From: Paralimibaculum aggregatum
GTDB lineage: Bacteria; Pseudomonadota; Alphaproteobacteria; Rhodobacterales; Rhodobacteraceae
Reading direction: 5' to 3'
DNA: 64,000 nt
Assembly (NCBI RefSeq): GCF_030270585.1
Contig: NZ_BSYI01000008.1
Location: forward strand, 62,001-126,000
Shown here in pieces: positions 4,408-31,840 of this stretch. How positions within the stretch are numbered: the stretch's first letter is position 1; each line of letters opens with the position of its first letter. A model generated the notes under the pieces. It was not told where the DNA came from and searched no databases. It was given only the letters and a program-made list of their open reading frames with translations. Position numbers and translations under genes: made by a program.

Positions 4408-4434
4408 CGCGGGGGGCGCAGCCCGCCCCCCGCG
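4408..4434 (+). other. Intercistronic hairpin after the binding-protein gene
   Basis: A perfect 10-bp inverted repeat (CGCGGGGGGC / GCCCCCCGCG) with a 7-nt loop sits between the binding-protein stop and the first permease. No T-tract follows, so it is more likely an RNA-stabilising or partial-attenuation element than a full terminator. Such hairpins are known in ABC operons, where they raise binding-protein mRNA relative to permease mRNA. Confidence 0.6.
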
Positions 4435-4455
4435 GCCACAGAACGGGAGACCCCC

Positions 4456-8965: not shown

Positions 8966-8971
8966 CGCCTC

Positions 8972-8994
8972 GCGCCCCCCCGCCCGGGGGGCGC
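8972..8994. terminator. Bidirectional terminator hairpin
   Basis: A perfect 9-bp inverted repeat (GCGCCCCCC / GGGGGGCGC) with a 5-nt loop fills the 34-bp gap between the cytochrome gene and the convergent DUF3299 gene. It can serve both directions. Confidence 0.65.
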
Positions 8995-8999
8995 CTCGC

Positions 9000-9518: not shown

Positions 9519-9525
9519 CTGGTCC

Positions 9526-10779: not shown

Positions 10780-11489
10780 GCCGCGGCCTCCGTGCGGGCG
10801 ATCCGGTCGAGCGCCAGGCTGCGGTCGAAGCGCGCCGCGAGGCCGGCATCGTGGCTGACCATCAGGAGCGTCGCGCCGGCCGCGGCGACCTGCGCGAAGA
10901 GCAGGTCCATGAAGGCCGCCCGCGTGCCGGCATCGAGCGCCGAGGTCGGCTCGTCGGCCACCACGATCTCCGGCCCGCCGATCAGCGCGCGCGCCACCGC
11001 CACGCGCTGCTGCTGGCCGACCGAGAGCCGCGCCGCACTGGCCGCGGCGAGCGCCGCCTCCGGCAACCCGAGCGCGGCGAGCAGGCGGCGGGCCTCGGCG
11101 CGCCGGTCGGGGCCGACCCGCCGCGCCCGCTCCGGCGCGAAGGCGAGCGGCAGCAGCACGTTGTCGAGCACCGAGGCATAGGGCAGCAGGTTGAACATCT
11201 GGAAAACGATGCCGAGGCGCTCGGCCCGCATCCGGTCGCGCCGCGCGGCCGAGAGCGCCGAGAAGGGCGCGCCGGCCAGCCGGATCTCGCCGGCCTGCGG
11301 CGCCAGGATGCCGCAGATCAGCGCCAGCAGCGTCGATTTCCCGGAACCGCTGGGGCCGTGCAGGAAGACCCGCTCGCCGCGGGCGATCGCCAGTTCCCCG
11401 ACGGCGAGCGCGAAACCCGCGCCCCGGCGCCCCGCCGGCCAGGCGAAGCGCAGCCCGGAGATCTCGAGCGCGGGCGGCGGGGCGGGCAT
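10776..11489 (-). CDS. LolD/MacB-type ABC transporter ATPase
   Basis: 237 residues. It has Walker A GPSGSGKST, a Q-loop (FQMFNLLPY), the signature LSVGQQQR, Walker B IVVADEP and H-loop SHD, as in the LolD/MacB/FtsE group that pairs with FtsX-type permeases. It overlaps the permease gene by 4 bp and follows the ZrgA-like gene by 17 bp. Its expression should follow the Zur site upstream of that gene. Confidence 0.92.
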   Translation of the reverse strand: MPAPPPALEISGLRFAWPAGRRGAGFALAVGELAIARGERVFLHGPSGSGKSTLLALICGILAPQAGEIRLAGAPFSALSAARRDRMRAERLGIVFQMFNLLPYASVLDNVLLPLAFAPERARRVGPDRRAEARRLLAALGLPEAALAAASAARLSVGQQQRVAVARALIGGPEIVVADEPTSALDAGTRAAFMDLLFAQVAAAGATLLMVSHDAGLAARFDRSLALDRIARTEAAA

Positions 11490-11506
11490 GGCGGGGCCGC
11501 CGGGGC

Positions 11507-12241
11507 TCAGAGGATCCCGGGCAGTGTCAGCGCGGGCGCCGCGCGGCTCACTTCCGCGGCGGTGGCGCCGCCGGCGCCGACCATCTGCACCTCGAGCGTC
11601 TCTGCCCCGGGGAAGGCGTCGAAATAGGCGAAGCCGATGCGGTCGATCCGCGCCGGGTCGGCGCAGCGGAGCAGATAGGCGGCGCGGAACTCGCTGTGGC
11701 TGGCCTCGGCCGGCTCGTGCGCGTCGTGGTCCTCGCCGTCGTGGTCGTCGTCGTGGCCCGCGGAATGCGCCGCGTCGTCGCCACCATGCCCGTGCGCATG
11801 GTCGTGCGTGTCGCCATGATCGCGGTGACCGGCGTCCTCGCCGTGGTCATGGGCCTCGCCCTCGCCCTCGCCCTCGTGATGTTCGGGCGTCTCGGCGTGG
11901 TCGTCATGGTCGCCGCCATCGACGAAATGCGCCACCTGCGCCTCGACCAGCTGGCAGCCCGCCGCTTCCGGCAGCACGAAGAGAGAGAGCGGGTCGGCCA
12001 GCCGGGCTTTCGCCTCGTCCAGCGCGGCGCGGTCCGCGTCGCTTCCGGCGGCATGCTCGAAGCCGACGATGTCGGCGCCCGGCGCTTCCAGCTCCATGGC
12101 GATCGCGGTGCCGTCGAAGGCGATGTCGAGCTTGCCCTCGCCGTGCTGGTGGGCGCCGAGGCCGCGGGTCTCCTGCGCGCTCGCGGGCGCCGCGAGGGCG
12201 AGGCCGAGAAGCAGGGCTGCGGAAAGGGGGAGGGGGCGCAT
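11507..12241 (-). CDS. ZrgA/DUF2796 family His-rich periplasmic zinc-binding protein
   Basis: 244 residues. A signal peptide (cleavage near ASAQ, ~residue 23) is followed by the DUF2796 start GAHQHGEGKLDIAFDG. The middle (~108-180) is a low-complexity stretch dense in His, Asp, Gly and Glu, a typical zinc-sponge segment. The C-terminal part resumes a folded domain (EFRAAYLLRC). The family is named after ZrgA of Vibrio cholerae, part of a zinc-regulated operon that also encodes ABC transporter components. Here it leads a four-gene operon, and a Zur box lies just upstream. I infer a zinc scavenging or delivery role under zinc starvation. Confidence 0.88.
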   Translation of the reverse strand: MRPLPLSAALLLGLALAAPASAQETRGLGAHQHGEGKLDIAFDGTAIAMELEAPGADIVGFEHAAGSDADRAALDEAKARLADPLSLFVLPEAAGCQLVEAQVAHFVDGGDHDDHAETPEHHEGEGEGEAHDHGEDAGHRDHGDTHDHAHGHGGDDAAHSAGHDDDHDGEDHDAHEPAEASHSEFRAAYLLRCADPARIDRIGFAYFDAFPGAETLEVQMVGAGGATAAEVSRAAPALTLPGIL

Positions 12242-12296
12242 GGGGAGGCTCCTTCTGCAGATCAGATCCAGCGCGCTATAGCAGGAGAAGGGCTTC

Positions 12297-13298: not shown

Positions 13299-14102
13299 TC
13301 AGTCGACGAAGGCGCGCTCCACCACGAACTCGGCGGGCTTGTTGTTGGCGCCCTCGTAGAGGCCGGCCTGCTCGAGCAGCGCCTTGACGTCCTTGAGCAT
13401 GGCCATCGAGCCGCAGATCATGCCGCGGTCGGTCTCGGGGTTCAGCGGCGGCACGCCGAGCTCCTCGTAGAGCCTGCCGCTGGTCATCAGGTCGGTGATC
13501 CGGCCCATCTTCGGGCCCTCCTCGCGGGTGGTGGTGGCGTAGTGCACCAGCTGGTCCGCGAACTCGCCGATCAGCTCGTCCGCCTTCAGCGCCGCCACGA
13601 GGTCGCGGCCATACTGCAGCTCGGCATCGAGCCGGCAGGTGTGGCAGAGGATGATCTGCTCGAACTTCTCATAGGTCTCGGGATCGCGAATCAGCGAGGC
13701 GAAGGGCGCGATCCCGGTGCCGGTGGAGAACATGTAGAGCCGCTTGCCCGGCAGCAGCGCGTCGTTGACCAGCGTGCCGGTGGGCTTCTTGCGCATCAGC
13801 ACCGTGTCGCCGGGCTGGATCTTCTGGAGATGCTCGGTGAGCGGGCCGTCCGGCACCTTGATCGAGTAGAACTCGAGCTCCTCGTCCCAGGCCGGCGAGC
13901 AGATCGAATAGGCACGAAACACCGGCTTCACCGCGTTCGGCAGGCCGATCATCACGAACTCGCCGGAGCGGAAGCGGAAGCTCTGCGGCCGGGTCATGCG
14001 GAAGCGGAACAGCCGGTCGGTGTAGTGCTGGACCTCGGTCACGGTCTCGGCGAAGACGCCGGCGGGAATCGCGTATTCGGTGGTCGCGGTGCTGCTCGTC
14101 AT
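13299..14102 (-). CDS. fpr: Ferredoxin/flavodoxin-NADP+ reductase
   Basis: 267 residues of bacterial FNR. The FAD site is RAYSICSP; the pyridine-nucleotide motifs are STGTGIAPFASLIRD and CGSMAMLKD. The protein ends in an aromatic-containing tail (VVERAFVD), as in the Rhodobacter capsulatus-type enzyme. It exchanges electrons between NADPH and ferredoxin or flavodoxin, supporting redox balance and oxidative stress defence. An upstream in-frame extension of 50 codons was rejected: the start used has a ribosome binding site (GGAGACC) and matches the family. It converges on aguB with only 9 bp between stop codons. Confidence 0.92.
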   Translation of the reverse strand: MTSSTATTEYAIPAGVFAETVTEVQHYTDRLFRFRMTRPQSFRFRSGEFVMIGLPNAVKPVFRAYSICSPAWDEELEFYSIKVPDGPLTEHLQKIQPGDTVLMRKKPTGTLVNDALLPGKRLYMFSTGTGIAPFASLIRDPETYEKFEQIILCHTCRLDAELQYGRDLVAALKADELIGEFADQLVHYATTTREEGPKMGRITDLMTSGRLYEELGVPPLNPETDRGMICGSMAMLKDVKALLEQAGLYEGANNKPAEFVVERAFVD

Positions 14103-14226
14103 GGCTCGGCGGTCTCCGGTGTCGGTCTCGTGGCAGACGGAAAGGGGCTTCCGCTCCGGGAGTGGAAGCGCGCACCCTTCCGCAATCTCGTGTGCGGTGC
14201 AAGATAGGCAAGCGGCGGCCCTGCGC

Positions 14227-14246
14227 CAAGGGGCAGCCTGCCCTTG
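14227..14246 (-). terminator. Hairpin between pobA and fpr
   Basis: An 8-bp stem with one bulged base and a 3-nt loop lies 16 bp after the pobA stop on the minus strand. It may separate the aromatic operon from fpr; there is no T-tract. Confidence 0.35.
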
Positions 14247-14261
14247 CGGCAAAGGCCGGCG

Positions 14262-16846
<2,585 letters not shown>

Positions 16847-16857
<11 letters not shown>

Positions 16858-17347
16858 GGCCGGTCTCCTCCGCGGCGGCCTCGCCGCACTGCACCGCCGC
16901 GATGGCGGCCCAGAGCGCGAGCGAGATCACGCCGGGCGCGTAGAACGGCCATTCCGGCCAGCCGAGGATGCTCGAAGCGGTGCGGTCGGCGCGGGTCTCG
17001 AGGAGCCCGATCACCATCCAGTAGCCGAGGAACAGCGCCGCCGCCGCGGTCGCCGCCAGCCAGAGCCGGTCGAGCCCGCGGCGCAGGCCGCCCGGCAGCG
17101 CGCGCACGAAGAGGTCCACCGCCACATGGCCGCGCCGGAGCTGGCAGAGCGGGAAGAACATCAGCGCCGCGGCGCTCACCATCAGCCGCACCGCGTCCTC
17201 GTAGCCCGGCAGGCCCTGGGTGCCGAGGCCGAGCCAGCTCAGCAGGAAGGCGCCGGCGTTCCAGCTCGTGACGGCGACGATGGCGAGCAGCAGCAGCCCG
17301 CCGCCGAGCGCCCACCATTCGGCGAGCCGTGCCAGTGTCCCGTGCAT
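16847..17347 (-). CDS. TRAP transporter small permease (DctQ type)
   Basis: 166 residues with four membrane segments in the DctQ layout, including the RRGHVAVDLFVR segment typical of this subunit. It forms the membrane complex with the DctM-type subunit encoded next. Confidence 0.92.
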
Positions 17348-17380
17348 GGGGGCGCTCCTCTCGTGGCGGCCGGGCCGGGG

Positions 17381-18406
17381 TCACTCGCTCCGAGCGGCGA
17401 CCGCGGCGCGGGCGGCCTCGACCAGCGCCTGCCCGTCAAAGCCCTTGTCCGCGGTCTCGGCGATCCAGCGCGCGACGATCTCGGCCCCCAGCGCGTCGAA
17501 CTCCGCCTTGGCGGCCGGGTCGAGCTCGACGATCTCGCCGCCGCTGTCGCGCTGCATCGCCTTGCCGGGGGCCTCCACGGCGTCCCAGACCGCGCCCATC
17601 TCGGCGGCGATGGCGGCGTTCGAGTTGGCGTCGATCACCGCCTTCAGATCATCCGGCAGGCTCTCATAGCGCTCCTTGTTCATCGCCAGCAGGAACACCG
17701 CGGCGCCGAACCGGCTGCCATCGGCGCCCTCCACCGAATACGCGGTGATTTCGTGCAGCTTGAGCGGCGGGAAGATCTCGAAGGGCACCAGCGCGCCGTC
17801 CACCGTGCCCTTGGAGAGCGCCTGCGGCAGCGCCGGCACCGGCATGCCGACGGGCTCGGCACCCCAGGCCTCGATCATCCAGGCGCCGGTGCGCGAGGGG
17901 GTGCGCAGCTTCAGCCCCTTCACGTCGGCCACCCCGCCCACCTTCTGCGTGCGCAGATGCAGCGCGTTGCCGGCATGGACATGCACCAGCAGCGGGTGCA
18001 CATCCGCGAAATCCGGCGCGATCATCTCCCAGACATCCTGGATCGCGAGATTGGTCGCGGTGGCCGAGCCGAGATGCACGGTGGGCAGCTCGAAGACCTC
18101 CGAGCGCGGGAACACGTTGGGGGTGTAGCCCGGCAGGGTCCAGACGATGTCGGCAAAGCCGTCGCGCACCTGGCGATAGAGCTCGGGCGGCTTGCCGCCC
18201 ATCGCCATCGAGGGGAAGATCTCCACCGCGATGCGCCCGCCGGACTGCGCCTCGACGCGTTCCGCCCAGGGCTCGATCAGCCGGGTGTGGGCCGGCGATT
18301 TCGGCCCGAGGAAATGGTGCACGGTCAGCGTCACATCGGCGGCGGGGGCGGCGCCGGCGAGGCCGAGGGCGGTCGCCGTGGCGGCGAGCAGCGTGAGCGG
18401 TTTCAT
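17381..18406 (-). CDS. TRAP transporter periplasmic solute-binding protein (DctP type)
   Basis: 341 residues: a signal peptide (cleavage near APAA, ~residue 22) and a DctP fold. The ligand-binding signature is the TPSRTGAWMIEAWGAEP segment, whose Arg usually pairs with the carboxylate of organic-acid ligands. I moved the start to the ATG with ribosome binding site GGAGGA, removing 28 upstream codons without a signal character. It delivers a carboxylate substrate to the permeases encoded downstream. Between pcaG and pobA, 4-hydroxybenzoate or protocatechuate is the best guess. Confidence 0.92.
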   Translation of the reverse strand: MKPLTLLAATATALGLAGAAPAADVTLTVHHFLGPKSPAHTRLIEPWAERVEAQSGGRIAVEIFPSMAMGGKPPELYRQVRDGFADIVWTLPGYTPNVFPRSEVFELPTVHLGSATATNLAIQDVWEMIAPDFADVHPLLVHVHAGNALHLRTQKVGGVADVKGLKLRTPSRTGAWMIEAWGAEPVGMPVPALPQALSKGTVDGALVPFEIFPPLKLHEITAYSVEGADGSRFGAAVFLLAMNKERYESLPDDLKAVIDANSNAAIAAEMGAVWDAVEAPGKAMQRDSGGEIVELDPAAKAEFDALGAEIVARWIAETADKGFDGQALVEAARAAVAARSE

Positions 18407-18526
18407 GGGGTCCTCCGGTTCTTGTCGTTGTCGTTGTGTCTCGGCGGCTCCGGAGGCGGCGCGGCGGATCTCCTGCCACTCCGGAGCCATGCATTGTCGG
18501 TGCGCCCCGCTTCGGGCGCTTCGGGC

Positions 18527-19144
18527 TCAGATGTCGAAGAAGACGGTCTCCCGCTCCCCTTGCAGATGCACATCGAAGCGGTAGGCGCCGGGGCCGGCCG
18601 GCTCCGCCAGCAGCGTCTCGCGGCGATGCGCCTGCTCGATCAGGCCGAGCACCGGGCAGGCCGCATTGGCCTCCGGCTCGTCGGCAAAGCAGATCCGCGT
18701 CTGCAGCCCCAGATTGATGCCCCGCGCGACGATCCACAGCGAGATGTGCGGCGCCATCGGGCGCCCGCCGGGGCCCGCGACGGCGCCGGGCTTCACCGTC
18801 TCGATGACGAAGCGGCCGGTCTCGAAATCCGAGACCACGCGGCCCCAGCCGCGGAAGCCGGGCTCGACCTCGCCGTGGCGCGGATCGGCGGGATGCGCGT
18901 GGATGCCCGCGGCATTGGCCTGCCAGGTCTCGATCAGCACGTCCTTCACCGCGGTGCCGGTTCCGTCCAGCACCCGGCCTTCGATGGAGATCCGCTCCCC
19001 GGCGGCATCCGGTCCGGCGATGTCGGCGCCGAGCTGGTTGTGGAAGATCTCGAAGCCCGCGGCGCCGGGCGCGAGGCCGATATGGACATAGGGCCCCGCG
19101 GTCTGCGAGGGCGTCTCCTTCAGGTAGTCGAGCGGCTGCGGCAT
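18527..19144 (-). CDS. pcaG: Protocatechuate 3,4-dioxygenase alpha subunit
   Basis: 205 residues of the intradiol dioxygenase alpha chain. It starts with TPSQTAGPYVHIG and contains LIETWQANAAGIHAHP and APHISLWIVARG. It pairs with PcaH to form the Fe(III) enzyme that cleaves protocatechuate to 3-carboxy-cis,cis-muconate. Only 1 bp separates the stop of pcaH from its start codon, so the two chains are made together. About 120 bp follow before the TRAP gene. Confidence 0.96.
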   Translation of the reverse strand: MPQPLDYLKETPSQTAGPYVHIGLAPGAAGFEIFHNQLGADIAGPDAAGERISIEGRVLDGTGTAVKDVLIETWQANAAGIHAHPADPRHGEVEPGFRGWGRVVSDFETGRFVIETVKPGAVAGPGGRPMAPHISLWIVARGINLGLQTRICFADEPEANAACPVLGLIEQAHRRETLLAEPAGPGAYRFDVHLQGERETVFFDI

Positions 19145-19145
19145 C

Positions 19146-19874
19146 TCAGTTCCCCTCGGGGCGGTTCTCGAAGAAGGTCGAGCGGCGCCCCCTCAGCACG
19201 ATGTCGAAGCGGTAGGCGAGGCTGTCGAAGGGCACCGCGGCGTTCATGTCGAGCGGCGCCACGAGGGCCTCGATGGCGGCCGGGTCGGGCAGGGTCTGCA
19301 CGATCGGGCAGCGGGCGATCAGCGGGTCGCCCTCGAAATACATCTGGGTGATCAGGCGCTGGGCGAAGCCGGTGCCGAAGACCGAGATGTGGATATGCGC
19401 CGGGCGCCAGTCGTTCGCGCCATTGCGCCAGGGATAGGCGCCGGGCTTCACGGTGCGGAACGCATAGGCCCCGGTCTCGTCGGTGAGGCAGCGCCCGCAG
19501 CCGCCGAAATTCGGGTCGATCGGCGCGAGGTGGCGGTCATTGCGGTGGCGGTAGCGGCCGCCCGCATTGGCCTGCCAGACCTCGAGCAGGGTGTGCGGCA
19601 CGCCGCGGCCGCGCTCGTCGACCACCCGGCCATGCACGATGATGCGCTCGCCCACCGGGTCGCCGGTGCTGGCGAAGTTGCGGATCAGGTCGTTGTCGAG
19701 CGGGCCGAGATCGCCATGGCCGAAGACCGGCCCGGTGATCTCCGACATCGTGCTGCCGAGCGACAGCAGCGGCAGCCGCGGCGAGCGCGCCACGCTGGTC
19801 TTGTAGCTCGGGCTGAGCGCCGGCGGATGGCGCCGCCGGTCCCGCATGAAGAACGCCCCGGTTTCCACCGTCAT
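19146..19874 (-). CDS. pcaH: Protocatechuate 3,4-dioxygenase beta subunit
   Basis: 242 residues. The beta chain carries the iron: Tyr108 (GGRYRH), Tyr147 (GAYPWR), His160 and His162 ([11 protein letters not shown]) match the known Tyr2His2 ligand set. The ATG overlaps the pcaC stop (ATGA). The catalytic partner is the alpha chain encoded next. Confidence 0.97.
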
Positions 19875-20266
19875 GCCCCTGCCTCCCGGTCGATGGCCGT
19901 CTCGCCCAGCGTCTCCTTGACGATCTTCAGCGCATGGTTCGCCGCCGGCACGCCGGCATAGACCGCCACATGCAGCATCGCCTCGCGGATCTCCTCCGCC
20001 GTCGCGCCGGTATTGGCGGTGGCGCGGACATGCATGGCAAACTCCTCCCAGTGGCCGAGCCCGGCCAGCAGGGCGAGCGTGATCAGCGAGCGGTCGCGAT
20101 GGCTGAGCCCCTCGCGCGCCCAGACCGAGCCCCAGGCGCCCTCGGTGATGAAGGCCTGGAAGGGCGCGTCGAAGGCGGTGGTCGCGGCGCCCGCCCGGTC
20201 GACATGCGCTTCGCCGAGCACGGCGCGCCGCACCGCCATGCCCCGCTCGAGCCGGTCCTGCCCCAT
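19871..20266 (-). CDS. pcaC: 4-carboxymuconolactone decarboxylase
   Basis: 131 residues of the AhpD-like carboxymuconolactone decarboxylase family. It has the conserved [15 protein letters not shown] start, then [17 protein letters not shown] and the [15 protein letters not shown] helix. It converts 4-carboxymuconolactone to 3-oxoadipate enol-lactone. The ATG was chosen two codons inside the longest frame (which begins with TTG), 9 nt from an AAGGAG ribosome binding site. It is the first gene of the minus-strand operon, divergent from pcaQ. Confidence 0.95.
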
Positions 20267-20320
20267 GCGCAAACTCTCCTTCCCGTGGTGACGTGGGGAT
20301 GAGTGTGCCAGCCCGGAAAT

Positions 20321-20333
20321 TCATGTAAATTGA
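20321..20333. promoter_or_regulatory. Candidate LysR-type (PcaQ) binding box
   Basis: TCATGTAAATTGA fits the LysR-family T-N11-A rule, with inverted TTCA/TGAA arms. It lies in a small AT-rich island between divergent pcaC and pcaQ, the expected place for a PcaQ operator. Confidence 0.45.
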
Positions 20334-20363
20334 AATCTTGCCGTCTCAAATTAACCGGAAGGA

Positions 20364-21317
20364 ATGGATAAGGTGAACCGGCGGATCAAGCTGCGCCATC
20401 TGCGCTGCTTCCACGCGGTGGCCCGGCAGGGCAGCCTGGCCGGCGCCGCCGCGGCGCTGGCGCTGACCCAGCCGGCGGTGACCAAGACGCTGCAGGATCT
20501 CGAGGCGATCCTCGGCGTGCGGCTGGTGGAGCGCGGCCGCAAGGGGGCCGAGCTGACCGCCCATGGCCGGGTCTTCCTGCCCCGCGCGGCGGCCTGCCTC
20601 GGCGAGCTCGAGCGGGCGGTGACCAGCGTCTCGCGCAGCCGCGAGCGGGCGGAATGGACGGTGCGGATCGGCGCGTTGCCGACCGTGGCGGCGGGCTTCG
20701 TGCCGGTGGCGATCCGGGCGTTTCGCGCCGAGGGCGCCACCGCGCCGGTGCGGGTGGTGGCCGGGCCCAACCTGCATCTGCTCGGCGAGCTCCGCGAGGA
20801 CCGGCTCGATCTGGTGGTGGGCCGGCTCGCGGCGCCCGAGGCGATGGGAGACCTCGCCTTCCTGCATCTCTATTCCGAGCCGGTGCGCCTCGTGGTGCGG
20901 GCCGGGCATCCGCTGCTGGCGCAGGTGCCGCTCGAGCCCGGCCGCATCGCCGACTATCCGGTGATCCTGCCCGATGCCGATGCGGTGATCCGGCCGAGCG
21001 TCGAGCGGCTGCTGATCGCCCATGGCATCGGCGAGCTGCCGGAGCGGATCGAGTCGGTCTCCACCAGCTTCGGCCGCGCCGTGGTGCTCGACAGCGAGGC
21101 GGTCTGGATCATCTCCGAGGGGGTGGTGGCGCGGGACCTGGCCGACGGCACCTTCGTCGCGCTCGCCATCGACACCGCCGATACCTCCGGCCCGGTGGGG
21201 CTGACCACCCGGCCCGACCTGCCGCTGCGGCCCGGCGTCGAGCTGATGATCGACGCGATCCGCCGGGTGGCGCGCCGGGGGCCGCGGGGCCGCGCGGGCC
21301 GGGGCGCGCCCGATTGA
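20364..21317 (+). CDS. pcaQ: LysR-family regulator of protocatechuate genes
   Basis: 317 residues. The N-terminal winged helix (IKLRHLRCFHAVARQGSLAG, then LTQPAVTKTLQDLE) is followed by the LysR effector domain. The Q-P-A-V-T-K-T-L-Q-D-L-E recognition helix and the IKLRHLRCF start are typical of PcaQ. In related bacteria PcaQ activates pca genes, usually in response to an intermediate of the pathway. It is divergent from pcaCHG, consistent with that role. The ATG used lies very close to the AAGGA motif; a GTG three codons later has better spacing and could be the true start. Confidence 0.9.
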   Translation: MDKVNRRIKLRHLRCFHAVARQGSLAGAAAALALTQPAVTKTLQDLEAILGVRLVERGRKGAELTAHGRVFLPRAAACLGELERAVTSVSRSRERAEWTVRIGALPTVAAGFVPVAIRAFRAEGATAPVRVVAGPNLHLLGELREDRLDLVVGRLAAPEAMGDLAFLHLYSEPVRLVVRAGHPLLAQVPLEPGRIADYPVILPDADAVIRPSVERLLIAHGIGELPERIESVSTSFGRAVVLDSEAVWIISEGVVARDLADGTFVALAIDTADTSGPVGLTTRPDLPLRPGVELMIDAIRRVARRGPRGRAGRGAPD

Positions 21318-21390
21318 GGCTGGAAAAGCCGCCCCGATCCGGATAACGCTCGATGCCGCACCGCACACCCGCCACGAGGGGAGCCCGCCG

Positions 21391-21675
21391 ATGCCCGAGC
21401 CGATGATCCAGACCGTGATCGCGGAGATCCGCGCCATCCTCGACGACGAGGCCGCCGAGATCACCGCCGAGACCCGGCTGATCGGCGAGGCCGGGCGGCT
21501 CGACAGCATGGGACTGGTCTCGCTCTGCATCCGGCTCGAGGAGATCGCCGAGGAGGCGGGCTTCGAGTTCGACTGGACCTCGGAGACCGCGATGTCGCAG
21601 TCGCGCAGCGTGTTCCGCAATGTCGGCAGCCTCGCCGCCGAGTTCGAGGCCCAGCGCGCCCGGGCCGCGGCGTGA
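21391..21675 (+). CDS. Acyl carrier protein-like protein
   Basis: 94 residues, acidic, with the phosphopantetheine attachment motif GRLDSMGLVSLCIRLEE; Ser39 is the predicted modified residue. It is longer than FabD-cluster ACPs and has a C-terminal helix rich in Ala/Arg, so it is a specialised ACP. A good ribosome binding site (GAGGGGAG) precedes the ATG. It begins a four-gene cassette with an SDR, an acyl-adenylating ligase and a GNAT-like protein, which suggests that it holds an acyl group during reduction and transfer. It is not next to fatty-acid synthesis genes. Confidence 0.85.
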   Translation: MPEPMIQTVIAEIRAILDDEAAEITAETRLIGEAGRLDSMGLVSLCIRLEEIAEEAGFEFDWTSETAMSQSRSVFRNVGSLAAEFEAQRARAAA

Positions 21676-21679
21676 GCGG

Positions 21680-22354
21680 ATGATCGTCGTCAGCGGCGCA
21701 TCGCGGGGGCTCGGCGCGGCGATCCGCGCGGGGCTGATCGCCGATGGCGAGGAGGTCGTGGGCCTCGCGCGCAGCGCCGATCCGGCGGCCGACATCCTCG
21801 CCTGCGACGTCTCCGACCACGGCGCGGTGAAGGCGGCGATGCGCGCGATCAAGGCCCGCAAGCGCCCGGTGACGGCGCTGGTCAACGCCGCCGGCATCGC
21901 CTCGATGAACCTCGTGCTGACGACGCCCGAGGCGGTGATGCGCCGGGTGGTGGAGACCAACCTCCTCGGCACCATGTTCCTCAACCAGCAGGTGGCGCCG
22001 CTGCTGATCCGCGCCGGCGGCGGCAGCATCGTCAACTTCTCCACCATCGCGGTGACGCTCGGCCTGCGCGGCGAGGCGGCCTATGTCGCCTCCAAGGCCG
22101 GGGTCGAGGGCTTCTCCCGCGCCTTCGCCCGCGAGGTGGCGGATTTCGGCGTGCGGGTGAACTGCATCGCGCCGGGGCCGATCCGCACCGATCTGCTGAA
22201 GGGCATCACCGATGCGCAGATCGCCGCGATCACCGAGCAGCAGGTGATCCGCCGCGCCCATGAGCCGGAGGAGGTGGTGGACCTCGTGCGCACGCTTCTG
22301 GCACCGGGCTCGCGCGCGATCACCGGGCAGGTGATCCATGTGGGGGGCGCGTGA
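21680..22354 (+). CDS. FabG-like short-chain dehydrogenase/reductase
   Basis: 224 residues. Rossmann motif SGASRGLG (5-12), NAAG (69-72), catalytic Ser121, Tyr135 and Lys139 (YVASK) and APGPIRTD are all present. It is slightly shorter than FabG. The ATG lies 4 bp after the ACP stop, so the two are coupled. In this context it may reduce a 3-oxoacyl group on the neighbouring ACP. An upstream longer frame was rejected. Confidence 0.85.
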   Translation: MIVVSGASRGLGAAIRAGLIADGEEVVGLARSADPAADILACDVSDHGAVKAAMRAIKARKRPVTALVNAAGIASMNLVLTTPEAVMRRVVETNLLGTMFLNQQVAPLLIRAGGGSIVNFSTIAVTLGLRGEAAYVASKAGVEGFSRAFAREVADFGVRVNCIAPGPIRTDLLKGITDAQIAAITEQQVIRRAHEPEEVVDLVRTLLAPGSRAITGQVIHVGGA

Positions 22355-23643
22355 TGGGGGCCTTCGACGCGCTTGCCGAGCGCTGGGCGGGCATCGACGC
22401 GCCCTGCCTTGTGGGCGATGGCGAGGCGATCCGCTTCGCCGAGATCCGCGCCGCGGCGGCCGATCTCTCCGCGGTGCGCGCCGGCGACGTGGTGGCGCTG
22501 ATCGGGGATTTCGACCCGGTCTCCATCGCCTCCTTCCTGCAGCTGGTCGACCGCGCCGCCATCGTCGTGCCGCTGACCGCGGAGACCCGTGCCAGCCATG
22601 ACGCCTTCTTCGAGGCCGCCGGGGTGGACCTGGTGGTCGAGGGCGGCACGCTCCGCCGCCTGCGCGAGAGCCGGGACCCGCACCCGCTGCTCGCCGAGCT
22701 GCGCCGGCGCGGCCATCCCGGGCTGGTGCTGTTCTCCAGCGGCACCACCGGCGCGCCGAAGGCGATCCTGCACGACTTCTCCGCCTTCCTCGCGCGCTAC
22801 CACACCCCGCGGCCGACCCTGCGCACGCTGAGCTTCCTGCTGTTCGACCATATCGGCGGGATCAACACCCTGCTGCACACGCTGTTCAATGGCGGCACGG
22901 TGATCTCGACGCGCGACCGCTCCATCGCCAACGTGCTGGAGATGCTCGCCGCGCATGCGGTGGAGCTGCTGCCCACCACGCCGACCTTCCTGCGCATGAT
23001 GCTGCTCTCGGGCATGGTGCCGGAGCGGGTGCCGGACTGCCTGCGCATCGTCACCTACGGCACCGAGCGGATGGACCAGCCGACGCTCTCCGCGCTCTGC
23101 GCGGCGCTGCCGGCGGTGGATTTCCGCCAGACCTACGGGATGTCGGAGCTCGGCATCGTGCGGGTGAAGTCCGAGGCCCGCGACAGCCTCTTCATGAAGG
23201 TCGGCGGCGAGGGCATCGAGACCCGGGTCGAGGACGGCATCCTGAAGATCCGCTCGGCCAACCGGATGCTCGGCTATCTCAACGCGCCCTCGCCCTTCGA
23301 CGCCGAGGGCTGGTACGACACCAGGGACCGGGTCGAGGTGAAGGGGGACCATCTCCGCATCACCGGGCGCGACAGCGACGTGATCAATGTCGGCGGGCTG
23401 AAGTTCATGGCGGCGGATGTCGAGCGCGCGGCGCTGGAGATCCCCGGCGTGCGATTCGCGAAGGCGGTGGCGCGGGCCAACCCGATCACCGGCCAGCATG
23501 TCGTGCTCGAGGTCGAGCCCGAGCGCGAGCTCGCGGCGGCCGAGGTGAAGGCGGCGCTGAAGGCCGCGCTGCCGGCGCATATGGTGCCGAGCCGCGTGCG
23601 CATCGCGAAGGTCGGCTATGGCCACCGTTTCAAGCGGCTCTGA
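22354..23643 (+). CDS. AMP-dependent acyl-acid ligase (ANL superfamily)
   Basis: 429 residues, short for the ANL family. The P-loop is SSGTTGAPK (128-136), the adenine-binding motif YGMSE (261-265), and the hinge and second domain are GWYDTRDRVEVKGDH and ITGRDSDVINVGGLKF. It ends in a basic segment (GYGHRFKRL) where the catalytic Lys is expected. It activates a carboxylic acid as acyl-AMP and probably loads it onto the ACP encoded upstream. Start and upstream stop overlap (TGATG). The N-terminal half is shorter than in acyl-CoA synthetases. Confidence 0.87.
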   Translation: MGAFDALAERWAGIDAPCLVGDGEAIRFAEIRAAAADLSAVRAGDVVALIGDFDPVSIASFLQLVDRAAIVVPLTAETRASHDAFFEAAGVDLVVEGGTLRRLRESRDPHPLLAELRRRGHPGLVLFSSGTTGAPKAILHDFSAFLARYHTPRPTLRTLSFLLFDHIGGINTLLHTLFNGGTVISTRDRSIANVLEMLAAHAVELLPTTPTFLRMMLLSGMVPERVPDCLRIVTYGTERMDQPTLSALCAALPAVDFRQTYGMSELGIVRVKSEARDSLFMKVGGEGIETRVEDGILKIRSANRMLGYLNAPSPFDAEGWYDTRDRVEVKGDHLRITGRDSDVINVGGLKFMAADVERAALEIPGVRFAKAVARANPITGQHVVLEVEPERELAAAEVKAALKAALPAHMVPSRVRIAKVGYGHRFKRL

Positions 23644-24511
23644 GGCGCCCGCCACCGGGCCGATCGCCGAGGGCGACTGGCCGGGCTATGTGCGTCTCGC
23701 CGAGGCGATGTTCCCGGGAGGCTACCAGGCGCGGCGCGGCCATGCCGAGTGGCTCGCGGCCTGCCCCGGCGGCGGCGGCATCGTGCTGGCCCGCGCCGGG
23801 GGACGGGTCGTCGGCTGCCATCACCATTTCACCGGCCTCGTCGAGGCGGAGGGGGGGGCGCGCCCCGTCACCGCCTTCTACAACCTCGCGGTGGAGGCGG
23901 CGGCGCGCGGGCTCGCGGGGTTCGACCTGATCCGCCGGGGGCTGGTGGCGGGCAAGGGCGCGCGCTTCGTGCCCGGCGTCGCGGTGCCGGAGCTGATCGC
24001 GAGCTATGGCAAGCTCGGCGGTGCGGCGGTGCCGAGCCTCTGGGGGCGCCGGCTGGAGCCGCTCGGCGCGCTCGGCCGGGTGCTGCCGCGGGCGCGCGGG
24101 GTGGAGATCGCCCCGGTGGATGCCGGAACGGTCGCGGCGCTGGCGGCCTCGGCCGAGGCCCGGGCCTTCCTCGACTGGCGGCTGCGGCATCCGCTGGCGC
24201 CGCCCGCCTTCCGCGTCGAGACCGTGGCCGGCGCGGCGATCGTCAGCCTCGGGCGGCGGCGCGGCCTGCGCTTCGTGCGGGCGATCCACCGCCTCGGCGA
24301 ACGCTGGCCGGACTGGGCGCGCCTCGCCCGCGCCACCGGCTCCGAGGTGGTGCTGCTCTCGGCGCTGGGCGAGGATACGCTGCCGCCGGGCTTCCGCCCC
24401 TATCCCGCGCCGCCGAGGAGCTTCCTCTTCGACCGGCGCCGCACGGTGGACCCGGCCCGCCTCACCGCCTTCCACGGCGATATCGGTTTCGACTACCGCC
24501 GCCTGCCCTGA
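23618..24511 (+). CDS. GNAT/FemAB-like acyltransferase
   Basis: 297 residues. It resembles two GNAT-type folds in a row: VVGCHHHFTGLVEAE, then NLAVEAAARGLAGFDLIRRG in the first half, followed by a C-terminal part with FLDWRLRHP and a RSFLFDRR segment. This is typical of N-acyltransferases that modify sugars or peptides, but the match is not specific. The start overlaps the ligase by 26 bp, so all four genes are co-translated. I infer that it moves the acyl group from the ACP to an amine acceptor. Confidence 0.65.
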   Translation: MATVSSGSEAPATGPIAEGDWPGYVRLAEAMFPGGYQARRGHAEWLAACPGGGGIVLARAGGRVVGCHHHFTGLVEAEGGARPVTAFYNLAVEAAARGLAGFDLIRRGLVAGKGARFVPGVAVPELIASYGKLGGAAVPSLWGRRLEPLGALGRVLPRARGVEIAPVDAGTVAALAASAEARAFLDWRLRHPLAPPAFRVETVAGAAIVSLGRRRGLRFVRAIHRLGERWPDWARLARATGSEVVLLSALGEDTLPPGFRPYPAPPRSFLFDRRRTVDPARLTAFHGDIGFDYRRLP

Positions 24512-24610
24512 ACCCGATGTCGGGATTTGCACGGAGATTTCGGAATCCGTGTCGCCGCGCCCGCGTCCCCGGCCCATGCTGGCCGCATCAGGACATGGAG
24601 GGACCGGGCA

Positions 24611-26170
24611 ATGGCCGAAGCCGAAGCCGCAACCAGGGCCCGCGCACGCGGCGGGCGCCGGGCGCGCCAGGCGCTGCGCAGCGCGCCGCAATTCGACATG
24701 CTGCCGGGGCTCGAGCGCAACCTGCCGCTCTGCGAGCCGATGAGCGAGGAACAGATCCGCCGGATCGACGATGCCTCGATGGCGATCCTCGAGGAGGTCG
24801 GCTGCGTCTTCCGCGACCCGATCGCGCTGGCGGACTGGCGCCGCGCCGGGGCGGATGTGCGCGGCGATCGGGTGCATCTGGACCGCGGCCTGGTGCGCGA
24901 CCTGATCGCGACGATCCCCGAGCGGTTCACCTATCTGGCGCGCGACCCGGCGAAATCGGTGGCGCTCGGCGGGCGCAGCGCGATCTTCGTGCCGATGACC
25001 GGGGCACCCTATCTGCGCGATCTCGAGGACCGGCGCCGGCTGCCGACGCTCGAGGATCTCGCGATGTTCCACAAGCTCGCGCACATGGCGCCGGCGCTGC
25101 ATTCCTCGGCGCATCACATCGTCGAGCCGATGGACATCCCGGTCAGCCATCGCCACCTGCACATCACCTATTCCTCGATCCGGCACTCCGACAAGACCTT
25201 CATGGGCATGACCACCAGCCCGAAGAATGCCGAGGACGTGCTCGACATGGCGGCGATCCTGTTCGGCGCCGACACGCTGGAGCGCCAGCCGGTGATCACC
25301 GGCAACTGCAACGGCAACTCGCCGCTGGTCTGGGACGAGACCATGCTCGGCGCCATGCGCGCCTTCTGCCGGCGCAACCAGCCGGTGCTGTGCTCGCCCT
25401 TCGTGCTCGGCGGCGCCAACACGCCGGCCTCGATGGTGCCGACGGTGGTGCAGCTCAATGCCGAGGCGCTGGCCGGGCTGGCCTATACCCAGGTGATCCG
25501 CAAGGGCTGCCCGGCGGTCTACGGGCACTACCTCGCCACCGTCTCGATGGCCTCCGGCGCGCCGATGGCCGGAACGCCGGAGATCTCCCTGATGAACTTC
25601 ATGATCGGGCAGATGGCGCGGTTCTACGGCGTGCCCTGGCGGACCTCGAACACCCTCGGCGGCGCCAAGGTGCTGGATGCCCAGGCCGGCTACGAGAGCG
25701 CCGCGACGCTCTCGGCGGTGCTGCATGCCGGGGCCAACTACATCTGGCATTCGGCGGGCTGGAACGAGGCCGGGATGCACTGCTCGGTGGCCAAGTTCAT
25801 GGTGGATGCCGAGCAATGCGCGATGGGCCACCGGATGGCCTCGGGCCTGCGCTGGGACGATTTCGACGAGGCGCTGGCGGCGGTGCGCGATGTTGGCCCC
25901 GGCGGGCACTATCTCGGCCACCCGCACACCCAGGCGAATTTCCAGCGCGCCTTCTTCATGCCGAAGCTCTTCGACAACAACGCCGTCGAGCAGTGGCAGG
26001 CGGAGGGCGCCATCGAGACCCCGGAGCGGGCGCTCAGGCTGGCGCGCAAATGGCTGGGGGACTACGAGGCCCCACCGCTCGACGAGGCCATCGACGAGGC
26101 GCTGAAGGACTACATCGCCCGCCGCTCGCGCGAGATCCCGGCGGTGGACGAGCTCAACCAGCAGCACTGA
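24611..26170 (+). CDS. Trimethylamine methyltransferase (MttB) family protein, non-pyrrolysine
   Basis: 519 residues, full length for the MttB superfamily. The frame contains no in-frame TAG, so unlike archaeal MttB it has no pyrrolysine. Such homologues include glycine betaine and other quaternary-amine demethylases that pass a methyl group to a corrinoid protein. Conserved parts include LEEVGCVFRDP near residue 70 and RTSNTLGGAKVLDAQAGYES in the C-terminal half. A ribosome binding site (GGAGGG) supports the ATG; 28 upstream codons were rejected. No corrinoid protein or other methyltransferase is beside it, so the substrate is unknown. Confidence 0.9.
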   Translation: MAEAEAATRARARGGRRARQALRSAPQFDMLPGLERNLPLCEPMSEEQIRRIDDASMAILEEVGCVFRDPIALADWRRAGADVRGDRVHLDRGLVRDLIATIPERFTYLARDPAKSVALGGRSAIFVPMTGAPYLRDLEDRRRLPTLEDLAMFHKLAHMAPALHSSAHHIVEPMDIPVSHRHLHITYSSIRHSDKTFMGMTTSPKNAEDVLDMAAILFGADTLERQPVITGNCNGNSPLVWDETMLGAMRAFCRRNQPVLCSPFVLGGANTPASMVPTVVQLNAEALAGLAYTQVIRKGCPAVYGHYLATVSMASGAPMAGTPEISLMNFMIGQMARFYGVPWRTSNTLGGAKVLDAQAGYESAATLSAVLHAGANYIWHSAGWNEAGMHCSVAKFMVDAEQCAMGHRMASGLRWDDFDEALAAVRDVGPGGHYLGHPHTQANFQRAFFMPKLFDNNAVEQWQAEGAIETPERALRLARKWLGDYEAPPLDEAIDEALKDYIARRSREIPAVDELNQQH

Positions 26171-26177
26171 GCGCGGC

Positions 26178-26205
26178 GGCGCCCCGGGCCTCTCCCCGGG
26201 GCGCC
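26178..26205. terminator. Bidirectional terminator hairpin
   Basis: A perfect 11-bp inverted repeat (GGCGCCCCGGG / CCCGGGGCGCC) with a 6-nt loop fills the gap between the convergent mttB-like gene and trpB. Confidence 0.65.
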
Positions 26206-26219
26206 CGCCTCACATCGCC

Positions 26220-27440
<1,221 letters not shown>

Positions 27441-28368: not shown

Positions 28369-28809
28369 TCAGAGGCTGAGTTTCATCCCCTGATGCGTCG
28401 CCTCGAAGCCGAGCCGCTCGTAGAAGCGGTGGGCGTCGGCGCGGCGCAGGTCGGTGGTGAGCTGCACCAGCCCGCAGCCGGCCTCGCGGGCGCGGCCGAT
28501 GGCCGCCTGCATCAGCGCCTCGCCGACGCGCTGCCCGCGCGCCGCGGCGGCGACGCGCACCCCCTCGATCTGCGCCCGCGTCAGGCCGCGCCGCGACAGG
28601 CCGGGGATCAGCGTGACCTGCAGGCAGCCGATCAGCGCGCCGTCGCGCTCCGCCACGAGATAGACATTGCCCGGCATCGCCTGCATCGCCGCGAAGGCCC
28701 GGGCATAGGCCGGGTCTCCCGGCGCCTCGCGGCCCCTGCCCAGCCCGTCATCGGCGAGCAGCGCCACGATCGCCGGAACATCGGCCGCAACCGCCTCGCG
28801 AATCCTCAT
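28369..28809 (-). CDS. GNAT family N-acetyltransferase
   Basis: 146 residues. The GNAT core is clear: LIGCLQVTLIPGL, then the acetyl-CoA motif VAAAARGQRVGEALMQAAI and the FYERLGFEATHQGMKL end found in many small-molecule acetyltransferases. The ATG overlaps the stop of the hydrolase gene (ATGA), so both are co-translated. The substrate is unknown. Confidence 0.9.
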   Translation of the reverse strand: MRIREAVAADVPAIVALLADDGLGRGREAPGDPAYARAFAAMQAMPGNVYLVAERDGALIGCLQVTLIPGLSRRGLTRAQIEGVRVAAAARGQRVGEALMQAAIGRAREAGCGLVQLTTDLRRADAHRFYERLGFEATHQGMKLSL

Positions 28810-30023
28810 GGTCGCTCCTCCGCCAAGAACCGCGCGATCGCCGCCGCCAGCCGCGGCCAGGCCGGCTCGCTCTCCAGCACCACGTGGTTGGGGCTGTCGA
28901 GCGCCAGGAAGCGCGCCCCGGGGATCGCCGCGGCAAGCCGGCGTCCGGCCTCGAAGGGCACGATCTGATCGCCCCGGCAATGCGTCACCAGCACCGGCAG
29001 GTCGAGCCGCGGCAGCGAGTCGCGCACGTCGATGTCGCCGAAGGCATCGAGGATCCGCCGCGCGGCTTCCGGCGTGGCGGAGATCTGCTGCAGCCGGTTG
29101 AACCAGCCATGCAGCGCCGCGTCGCCCTCGGGGAAGAACAGCGAGGAATAGAGCTGGCGCCAGGCCGGCAGCTCGGAGCCCCAGCCCACCGTCACGAGAT
29201 CGAGCAGCGCCTCGCGCTGCGCCGCCCAGTCGGTCTCGCCGATCCGCCGCCAGCCCGCCGCATAGCCGCCATGGAGCACCATGCGGCTCACCCGCTCCGG
29301 GTGCCGGCGGGCATATTCGATGGCGATCGCCGCGCCCTGGCTGATGCCGAGCAGCGCCACCCGGTCGAGGCCCAGCCCGTCGATCACCGTCTCGAGATCG
29401 GAGACGAAGGCCTCGAAGGTGATCGCCTCCGCCCCGCGGTCCGACAGGCCGTTGCCGCGCTGGTCGTAGCGGACATAGCGGTTCCGCGCCGCGAGCGCCG
29501 CCACCCAGTGCCGCCAGACCGGGCTCTCGAGGTCGTGCTCGAGATGGGTGAGGAAGGACGTGGTCTTGACGATCACCGGCCCCTCGCCGAGCGAGGCATG
29601 GGCCAGATGCACCCCGTCCGGCGCGGCGAGATAGCGGATCTCGGCCGGTGTGGCGGGGGCGGCCGGTGCGGCGGCGGCAGCCGCAGGGGGCAGGCCTCCG
29701 GCCGCCTCCACCTGCCCGAGAAAGCGGAAGCCCCGGCGCGGCACGGTGCGGATGATCCGCTGCGCGCGGCCGTCGTCGCCGAGGGCGGTGCGGGCGGCGT
29801 TGATGCGCGAGGCGATCGCCGCATCCGAGACGATGCGCCCGCGCCAGACCGCCTCGATCAGCTCGTCGCGGGAGATCAGGCGGTCCGGGTTCGCGGCAAG
29901 GAAGCGGATCAGCGTGAAGACCTGCGGCTCCACCGGCACCACGCCGTCGGGGCCGAGCAGCTCGCCGGTGCCCGGGCAGAGGCGATATCCTTCGAAACGG
30001 AGCTCGTCGGGGTCTCCGGTCAT
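28806..30023 (-). CDS. Winged-helix DNA-binding/alpha-beta hydrolase fusion
   Basis: 405 residues with two domains. Residues ~7-104 are an OmpR/PhoB-type DNA-binding domain (VEPQVFTLIRFLAANP, RDELIEAVW, RTVPRRGFRFLG). An Ala/Pro linker (~112-126) leads to an alpha/beta hydrolase with the nucleophile Ser228 (GISQG), Asp352 and His380. The fusion suggests a regulator that senses or processes a small ester or lactone-like ligand, or a hydrolase whose transcription depends on itself. It lacks a response-regulator domain and a signal peptide, so it is cytoplasmic. It is cotranscribed with a GNAT enzyme and divergent from a small gene. Confidence 0.87.
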   Translation of the reverse strand: MTGDPDELRFEGYRLCPGTGELLGPDGVVPVEPQVFTLIRFLAANPDRLISRDELIEAVWRGRIVSDAAIASRINAARTALGDDGRAQRIIRTVPRRGFRFLGQVEAAGGLPPAAAAAAPAAPATPAEIRYLAAPDGVHLAHASLGEGPVIVKTTSFLTHLEHDLESPVWRHWVAALAARNRYVRYDQRGNGLSDRGAEAITFEAFVSDLETVIDGLGLDRVALLGISQGAAIAIEYARRHPERVSRMVLHGGYAAGWRRIGETDWAAQREALLDLVTVGWGSELPAWRQLYSSLFFPEGDAALHGWFNRLQQISATPEAARRILDAFGDIDVRDSLPRLDLPVLVTHCRGDQIVPFEAGRRLAAAIPGARFLALDSPNHVVLESEPAWPRLAAAIARFLAEERP

Positions 30024-30124
30024 CGCGCGCCACCTGCCGGAAGGGAAATCTCAAGGAAAACACAAGCGGATCCGAAGCGAAGGGTCAAGCGGGCCGGCGC
30101 CGGCGGCGGTAGCTCTCGGGGGCA

Positions 30125-30162: not shown

Positions 30163-30435
30163 ATGACCGAGATCCAGACCCGCCCCGCCCGGACTGCCGA
30201 GATCGCCGGGACGCCGGAGAGTTTCTTCCTTGCCGATGGCCGGATCGACTATCCCCGCGCGCTGGCCGCCGGGCGGCGCTGCCGCTCCGCCGCGGTCTGC
30301 GCCGCCGGGGCCGGGGCGGTCCGGGGAGCCCGGCAGGCCGCCGACGCCGCGGCATCGCAGGGTGCCGAGACCGGCCGGAGCCTGCTCGGCCGGCTCGCCC
30401 GGTTCTGGCTGTCGCCCAGCCCCGTCATCCGGTGA
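30163..30435 (+). CDS. Small hypothetical protein
   Basis: 90 residues, Ala- and Arg-rich, with no membrane segment or signal peptide. The segment FFLADGRIDYPRALAAGRRC (20-39) is the most conserved-looking part; I recall similar short, unassigned proteins in Rhodobacterales. A ribosome binding site (AGGAGAG) precedes the ATG. Its end overlaps the convergent membrane protein by 11 bp. Confidence 0.6.
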   Translation: MTEIQTRPARTAEIAGTPESFFLADGRIDYPRALAAGRRCRSAAVCAAGAGAVRGARQAADAAASQGAETGRSLLGRLARFWLSPSPVIR

Positions 30436-31840
30436 GCGGGCCCGAGGCGGCATCGTCGGGCCCGGCCCGGCGCGCGCCTCCGGCCGAGGCCCGGTCGCAG
30501 CAACCGGTCAGCAGCAGGTCGGCCGCCGCCACGATGGTGAACATGCCGATGGCAAGATAGGGCAGCAGGTGCTTCTCGAACTCGAAATACCCGTCGGCGA
30601 CCACGATGAACACCGGCGAGACGATCAGCGGCAGCAGCAGCGCCGCCGGCACCGCCCGGCGCGCCGCCGCCGCCGCCACGAAGAGCCCCACCCCGAGGCT
30701 CAGCACATGGCCGAGCCGGGCCAGCAGCCAGGCCCAGACCTCGGCCAGCGGCCCGGGATAGAGATAGTGCAGCCGGTAGTCCGCCCGCAGCGCGGTCAGC
30801 CAGCTCTCGCGGGCCACCGCCAGCGCCAGCGCGGGATCGCGCAGCAGCGTGCCGAGATAGGCCGGCAGCCGCCCGTGCACGGCCAGCGCGCGCTGCTCCT
30901 CGCGCGGCAGGGCGGTCATCTCGGGCCAGTAGGGGCTGCCCCAGTGATGCGCCACGCTCTCGGGCAGGCCGGTATCGGCGAATCCGGTGCGGCCGAGGCG
31001 GTCCTGCTGCACGCCGCGGCGGGCGAGGAAATCCCGCTCCGGCCAGGTCGAGACCGCGGCCGAGGACAGCGCCAGCCCGTCGAACACGCGGTTGTAGGCG
31101 TTCGGCACGCCATAGCGGATCTGGTTGCGCATGACGCCGAGCCCGACCACCACGACGAGAAAGCCGAGCATCAGCACCCGCGCCCGCGGCGGCTCGCGCC
31201 ACAGCACCAGCGCCACCGGCAGCAGCATCAGCACCATCGAGGGCTTGGCATAGATCAGCAGCGTCGTCGCCAGCACCAGCCAGATCGGCGGGATGCGGCG
31301 CCGCACGGTCCCGAGCAGCAGCGCCGTCCAGCCCGGAGCCAGCGCCAGCACCGCCGCCTCCTCGAAGGGCGAGTTGAAATAGCCGACCAGCACCGGGCAG
31401 AGCAGGATCGCCGCGATCGCCACCGCGGCGGCGAGCTTGCCGCCGCGGCTCGGCAGCGCCCGCATCAGCAGCAGCACGCCGCCGAGGAACAGCGCGAGAT
31501 AGGCCGCGGTCAGCCAGGCGATGTCGAATCGCGCCGCGCCGAGGGCCTTCGCCGCCAGCGCCGCGCCCTGGGCGATCAGCGCCGAGAAGCTGTCCGGTAC
31601 CAGCCGGCGGAGCTCGTTCTCGCCGATCTCCGCCATCGGATAGGTGCGGCCCGGCGCCGGGTCCCCGATGCTCGCGGCACGCGGGACGAAGGCCTTGTCG
31701 AGCACGCGGTAGCCGTCGCCGTTGTCGGCGAGGCCGATCCCCTGCCCCTCGATCAGCAGCAGCGCGCCGCACCAGCCGAGCAGCAGGAGCAGGCCGGCGA
31801 TCGCAGCGCGCCGCAGCAGGCTTGCATCTCCCGCGCTCAC
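30425..31840 (-). CDS. Polytopic membrane protein, GT-C-like topology
   Basis: 471 residues with about ten hydrophobic segments and a large loop between residues ~245 and ~335. The layout, a first TM, an exported acidic loop with [10 protein letters not shown], then many TMs, resembles GT-C-fold membrane glycosyltransferases, but no family signature is strong. It starts with GTG overlapping the trpF stop (GTGA), so it is co-translated with trpF. I cannot assign a function. Confidence 0.7.

Follow-up and report, generated by a model that had tools for sequence, protein, structure and literature searches.

Background

Genes for an acyl carrier protein (ACP), a 3-oxoacyl-ACP reductase and an AMP-dependent synthetase are given as orf1 to orf3 of the group II flagellin glycosylation islands of Aeromonas in the excerpt of PMC7874193, from which this type of cassette is known in outline. 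The same three functions (phosphopantetheine protein, AMP-dependent synthetase, 3-oxoacyl-ACP reductase) stand in a table of genes restricted to Yersinia ruckeri O1 (PMC5552943, excerpt). In antibiotic synthesis, MupQ, MupS and MacpD make a 3-hydroxypropionate (3HP) starter from malonyl-CoA, and the thiomarinol starter is 4-hydroxybutyrate (4HB), according to an excerpt of PMC10098928; labelling work on mupirocin and thiomarinol is reviewed in PMC4685789 (excerpt). Here, a four-gene cassette was analysed in the genome of Paralimibaculum aggregatum (contig NZ_BSYI01000008.1). The window, i.e. the whole stretch of DNA analysed, comprises 64,000 nucleotides; coordinates without a locus number refer to it. 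The cassette probably represents a stand-alone hydroxyacyl-ACP donor module of surface-glycan type with its own transferase, as judged from sequence comparison. No earlier description was met of its isolation from glycan genes, its rare fourth protein or the breadth of the family, and the literature searched, mostly without subscription papers, held no description of its product.

Gene layout

The cassette consists of the following genes.

21391..21675, + strand: ACP gene, 94 aa; Ser39 codon at 21505-21507
21680..22354, + strand: gene of a reductase of the short-chain dehydrogenase/reductase (SDR) family, 224 aa
22354..23643, + strand: AMP-forming ligase gene, 429 aa; Lys427 codon at 23632-23634
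23618..24511, + strand: fourth gene (P0004), GNAT-like, putative acyltransferase, 297 aa

The ACP and SDR genes are separated by a 4-bp gap, the SDR and ligase genes overlap in TGATG, and the ligase and fourth genes overlap by 26 bp, the start codon of the latter falling within the ligase gene. The ligase start was placed at ATG 22354; an alternative GTG at 22351 is possible. All coordinates and spacings given in a previous reading of the same DNA (the sequence-only reading) were reproduced. The codon-position G+C of all four open reading frames (ORFs) follows the pattern of genuine genes, with 0.93-0.98 at the third position. The cassette has a G+C content of 0.72-0.75, the flanking DNA one of 0.68-0.73. 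A promoter and terminator scan detected none and is uninformative at such high G+C.

Conservation of the gene order

Named genomes were scanned for relatives of the ligase, and at least 548 stretches were confirmed at E up to 1e-3; 80 loci (numbered with the prefix L) were kept. Close loci (L019-L069, n=51) were counted separately from more distant loci with a ligase ORF (n=28), using the best ligase per locus. By this rule L081 does not count, even though the full set accompanies its other ligase, and several loci lacking a contiguous core are contig ends. Among the matches listed, ACP, SDR and ligase genes were contiguous on one strand in 42 of the 51 close and 17 of the 28 distant loci (59/79 in total). 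An ACP gene was present within 4 kb of the ligase in 47/51 close loci and an SDR gene in 50/51.

A search for the four-gene order in other genomes, proposed with the sequence-only reading, returned the full order in L081, a gammaproteobacterial metagenome-assembled genome (MAG, MGR_bin175), while the three-gene core recurred as counted above. In L081 the order is identical and all four proteins are homologous to those of the window; it differs in its surroundings, where genes resembling glycosyltransferases lie upstream (by eye) and another cassette, of the polyketide synthase (PKS) type with ligase-SDR-ACP order, lies downstream. The recurrence of core and full order supports the earlier assumption that the four ORFs form a unit and not a chance arrangement.

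In the ligase tree, the 27-row group of the window spans Pseudomonadota, Verrucomicrobiota, Cyanobacteriota, Bacteroidota, Bdellovibrionota, Gemmatimonadota and Thermodesulfobacteriota as labelled, many records being MAGs or single cells whose taxon labels may err. A group spread across so many phyla suggests that the core has moved between lineages.

Three loci of the same family (L008, L009, L010) have the same core order, with ligases 41-46% identical to that of the window, and differ from it by a Hexapep protein (E about 2e-12) ahead of the ACP instead of a GNAT protein after the ligase. L010 is situated among sugar-nucleotide and glycosyltransferase-like genes (by eye). The fourth ligase locus from another genome of the family, L011, is of a different type; on inspection by eye, positions 8669-12260 contain two ACP-like ORFs, a distant SDR, a ligase and an apparent amino acid:carrier-protein ligase of aminoacyl-tRNA-synthetase type. 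In Rhizobium sp. T1470 (L017), an ACP, a GNAT-type protein (Acetyltransf_1, just under cut-off), an SDR and a ligase are encoded consecutively. Annotation names met for such genes were general fatty-acid or SDR/ligase terms.

At other loci, CmlS-type flavin halogenases adjoin or neighbour the ligase. The L079 protein (2842-4566) scored 737 bits against a cut-off of 900; in L017 (13876-15561) an annotated CmlS lies one gene from the ligase, and L082, L083 and L089 have halogenases beside the ligase (by eye), hinting at halogenated acyl groups.

Ligase, carrier protein and reductase

The ligase matched the Pfam family AMP-binding (E 1.4e-20). The adenylation motifs noted in the sequence-only reading were recovered as motifs that we take to be A3-, A5- and A8-like, together with Lys427 in RFK, invariant in 8/8 aligned ligases. 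By sequence comparison, the enzyme belongs to a family including the ligase of the thiomarinol plasmid pTML1 (33% identity, 225 bits). This link is specific, because two other ligases (named by eye) reached 44 bits, the best NCBIfam model 86.5 bits and the best PDB chain 68.4 bits. In the ligase tree, the pTML1 ligase falls in the same large group, on a long branch.

The ACP carries Ser39 within a DSMGL motif, and Ser was found in this column in 47/47 close-group ACP matches (pairwise alignment; four read KSR-, possibly shifted), which bears out the site noted earlier. The match to Pfam PP-binding was 14.6 bits, under the cut-off of 20.8. Identity to the ACPs of 11 selected close loci was 39-55%. 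A family-specific stretch, GFEFDWTSExAMSxSRSxFR, is present, and the invariant columns of a 12-ACP alignment include D38, S39, F58, F60, D61, W62, S64, M68 and S69.

The SDR matched adh_short_C2 (E 2.8e-45), and its best-scoring NCBIfam models and PDB chains were 3-oxoacyl-ACP reductases. The complete catalytic triad claimed for it stood in part: Tyr135 and Lys139 were conserved in 50/50 close homologues, and where the catalytic Ser would normally stand, 13 residues ahead of Tyr135, there is Thr122, directly preceded by Ser121. Among the 50 homologues, this position is Thr in 39 and Ser in 11. In the SDR tree the protein falls with SDRs of related cassettes in groups of 12 and of 31 rows (support 100/99 for both), separate from TmlS and FabG; several branches are long.

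A tblastn search of plasmids with the ligase gave 10 records at E 1e-30, four of which were opened. On pTML1, of the thiomarinol producer, a ligase, an SDR and an ACP precede a PKS gene; these are presumably TmlQ, TmlS and TacpD, the record reading fatty acid--CoA ligase, SDR and ACP. On Burkholderia and Bradyrhizobium plasmids, the order ligase-SDR-ACP is followed by a large PKS-type gene, the Burkholderia ACP being annotated as hypothetical. PKS clusters carry ligase-SDR-ACP, unlike the ACP-SDR-ligase of the window. The window SDR scored 104 bits to TmlS versus 124 to E. coli FabG, and the MupS chain 4yxf reached 92.9 bits, below many FabG chains (best 125). At E up to 10, TacpD was not matched by the ACP. 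MacpD was not found at E 0.01 with a profile of 12 close ACPs; a mixed profile (A3), which includes three PKS-type ACPs, found it first.

The gene after the ligase

The gene following the ligase was classified for P0004 and for the 35/51 close loci with a convincing same-strand ORF (n=36); 16 close loci were left out, four as contig ends and 12 without a convincing next ORF. Pfam matches at E up to 0.01, some of them under the gathering scores, were Acetyltransf_3 (18), Hexapep (8), Antibiotic_NAT (1), KAS III (3), PIG-L (1) and EamA (1). Acyltransferase families accordingly make up 27 of the 36, assuming no double counting, as reading of the sequences suggests. The slot after the ligase usually holds a member of an acyltransferase family, and the kind is freely exchanged. 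In an NCBIfam search with six of these proteins, those of L020 and L033 were PseH-like (76 and 81 bits, under the cut-off of 93), that of L028 was above the NeuD/PglB/VioB cut-off, and those of L026, L030 and L053 had no match at E 1e-5.

The sequence-only reading regarded the system as possibly undescribed. For the ACP-SDR-ligase core this was not supported, since it is conserved within larger biosynthetic clusters at several loci. The L028 context is flagellar, between fliG and flagellin/fliD; those of L020 (beside Polysacc_synt_2), L031 (dTDP-sugar genes) and L022 (a ManC-type protein and a DegT aminotransferase encoded at the same locus) are of polysaccharide or sugar-nucleotide type, and the L056 cassette lies with NeuB. 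The neighbours in L030 appear to be housekeeping genes (by eye). A flippase-like ORF follows the cassette in L053 (by eye).

Fourth protein of the window

The single Pfam match of the fourth protein was Acetyltransf_9 (E 0.058, under cut-off), and FemAB gave no match at E up to 1. Of the earlier designation as GNAT/FemAB-like, a weak GNAT signal was retained and FemAB was abandoned. Among the matches listed from the ORFs of the 80 loci (also phmmer), one clear relative was found, L081 7839-8837 (E 2e-12, 29% over 329 aligned positions), which likewise comes fourth, after ACP, SDR and ligase. In L080, the product of the next gene after the ligase gave a 95% profile match over the first half of the fourth protein and itself matched Acetyltransf_9 (E 0.0017, under cut-off). 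In 385 class genomes, three more partial matches were obtained (E 3e-4 to 6e-4); plasmid and viral-contig searches yielded no relatives. The proteins of L017, L046 and L030 were considered as relatives and set aside, kinship not being demonstrated.

Structure prediction with AlphaFold, also proposed earlier, was run from an alignment of two sequences; at pLDDT 36 the model was too poor to use. The order of its secondary-structure elements resembles two GNAT halves and was not used as evidence. A PDB profile search gave one unconvincing match, to an IMP dehydrogenase (E 2.7).

Genomic surroundings

Upstream of the cassette, on the opposite strand, pobA, a TRAP transporter, pcaG, pcaH and pcaC are encoded. 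Between the pca genes and the ACP gene lies pcaQ, on the strand of the cassette (372 bits, cut-off 304). Further features are as follows.

24611-26170, + strand: MttB-superfamily gene, about 100 bp past the cassette; 272 bits versus the trimethylamine methyltransferase cut-off of 525
30428-31840, - strand: WsfD-like membrane protein (glycan hexose transferase), 77 bits, cut-off 80; 5.9 kb downstream

By its score, the MttB-family protein is not the trimethylamine enzyme itself. It is followed further downstream by trpB, and a reductase was also among the scanned neighbours. The WsfD-like protein is the nearest glycan-gene candidate noticed around the cassette. By eye, the C-terminal part of an ORF at 28369-30063 (- strand) is a small ordinary GNAT-like sequence. 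An assignment to the ACP and synthetase pair of bacterial sphingolipid synthesis (PMC9386255, excerpt) was dropped, as no serine palmitoyltransferase was among the scanned neighbours.

The genome has two strong DegT-type aminotransferase matches. Near one of them (G000:C12:95999-97060), a PglD-like hexapeptide ORF was noticed by eye (L127 7969-8646). Together, this ORF and the DegT gene are candidates for supplying an amino-sugar acceptor.

In the four other genomes of the genus, the cassette was not found in this form, and pcaQ, tried as a marker of the empty insertion site, had no match at E 1e-30. In one genome of the genus (G582, L100 9184-18102), a small phasin-like protein is encoded upstream of a PKS-type ligase-SDR-ACP-PKS cassette (by eye).

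Proposed function and alternative explanations

The dedicated ACP would receive, on its phosphopantetheine, a small carboxylic acid adenylated and loaded by the ligase. Reduction of the carrier-bound group by the SDR would give a hydroxyacyl-ACP, from which the GNAT-like protein would transfer the hydroxyacyl group; the likeliest acceptor is an amine, on a sugar nucleotide or glycan produced elsewhere in the genome. Such a sequence of loading, reduction and transfer had been put forward in the sequence-only reading and is favoured by the acyltransferase families in the next-gene slot and by the pTML1 ligase standing beside an SDR and an ACP; the amine target and the identity of the acid stay conditional. 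Three observations favour a sugar amine as acceptor: PseH- or NeuD-like proteins occupy the same slot in L020, L033 and L028, some loci sit within flagellar or polysaccharide clusters and, as a weak indication, DegT-type aminotransferases are encoded in the genome. With one of these near the PglD-like ORF, an amino-sugar acceptor is possible.

Several results weigh against such a donor module. The GNAT assignment of the fourth protein is made with reserve, given the weak matches and the unusable model, and among the 36 proteins no acyltransferase family was matched by P0004 itself or by the next genes of L030, L046 and L047 (the last by elimination). Relatives of the fourth protein were limited to its own copy in 198 family and five genus genomes, and again in 398 phylum genomes (profile, E 1e-5), most of these genome scans having scored only some candidates per genome. 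At E 1e-30, a scan for the ligase succeeded in 5/198 family genomes including its own, with at most eight candidates scored each. As the sequence-only reading had stated, glycan, PKS or non-ribosomal peptide synthetase genes are not nearby: none was detected among the ten neighbours scanned (13302-27440), the window outside this range being read mostly by eye. A search of the genome for NeuB gave no match, and a control found it in 9/14 genomes, so a nonulosonate acceptor is unlikely here. The DegT family was detected in 14/14 control genomes and thus lends weak support.

The donor module may take either of two specific forms. Tentatively, a 3-oxo acid such as acetoacetate could be loaded (or the ACP could receive a 3-oxoacyl group) and be converted by the FabG-like SDR to 3-hydroxyacyl-ACP for N-acylation. 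The top scores of the SDR to 3-oxoacyl-ACP reductase models and chains fit this route, and N-3-hydroxybutyryl amino sugars have been reported from several marine bacteria (PMC3210612, excerpt). However, the ligase would be superfluous, since fatty-acid synthesis already provides 3-oxoacyl-ACP, and no source of a 3-oxo acid was recognised among the scanned neighbours, the pca pathway excepted, which passes via 3-oxoadipate. Rather doubtful is priming of the mupirocin/thiomarinol type, in which the ligase would attach malonyl- or succinyl-CoA to the ACP through the free carboxyl, and the CoA-thioester end would be reduced by the SDR; the resulting 3-hydroxypropionyl- or 4-hydroxybutyryl-ACP would be passed by the GNAT protein to an amine and not to a ketosynthase. 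For it speak the kinship of the ligase with that of the thiomarinol plasmid, the fit of a ligase and an SDR without ketosynthase to a substrate in which a second group can be reduced, KAS III as the next gene in 3/36 and the co-occurrence of both cassette types in L081. The known 3HP starter from malonyl-CoA and the 4HB thiomarinol starter (PMC10098928, excerpt) agree with it, as does a 4-hydroxybutyramido amino sugar reported from Pseudoalteromonas (PMC3210612, excerpt). Against it, the SDR scores higher to FabG than to TmlS or MupS and groups apart from TmlS, the ACP lacks a TacpD match and its close profile misses MacpD (found first by the mixed profile), and the gene order is different.

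It is very unlikely that the cassette is a piece of a glycan cluster, in decay or recently acquired, that is functionless at present. Its isolated position, its divergent fourth gene and the lack of a match to this form in the four other genus genomes, one with a PKS-type ligase, would suit a fragment; four intact frames with a coding signature and the G+C contents given above do not, and the catalytic residues are kept, apart from the Ser/Thr change common to relatives.

Significance

More specifically, the thiomarinol-family ligase could act outside polyketide synthesis, in a portable cassette delivering omega-hydroxyacyl-ACP (3-hydroxypropionyl or 4-hydroxybutyryl, derived from malonyl- or succinyl-CoA) straight to exchangeable N-acyltransferases, here as a free-standing unit beside protocatechuate genes; this proposal is unlikely on present comparisons. 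The protocatechuate pathway yields succinyl-CoA. If true, an omega-hydroxyacyl cassette would explain rare N-(4-hydroxybutyryl) amino sugars; Yersinia ruckeri O1 is said to have a 4-hydroxybutyramido nonulosonate, which could not be confirmed. Relatives are common, as the number of ligase stretches shows, so that identification of the product would give a function to many at once and could show where some bacterial surface sugars obtain their unusual N-acyl groups. For testing this, the isolated four-gene form offers a convenient minimal set, since the genes of donor synthesis and of the putative transferase adjoin.

Comparison with known systems

The pTML1 set and MupQ, MupS and MacpD have the three functional parts in common with the window, and the ligase is of the same family as that of pTML1. 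The pTML1 set differs in its ligase-SDR-ACP order and in an SDR and an ACP that are not specifically related to those of the window; the thiomarinol set feeds the fatty-acid chain of the antibiotic (PMC10098928, excerpt). As SDR and ACP are unlike their thiomarinol counterparts, that chemistry is not simply transferable to the window cassette, for which mupirocin chemistry is a lead, not a test. The orf1-orf2-orf3 set of Aeromonas, compared by annotation only, has the same three functions in the same numbering order as the window (PMC7874193, excerpt). According to the same excerpt, the Aeromonas islands carry pseudaminic acid and glycosyltransferase genes, whereas the window cassette is isolated and has a GNAT-like gene of its own.

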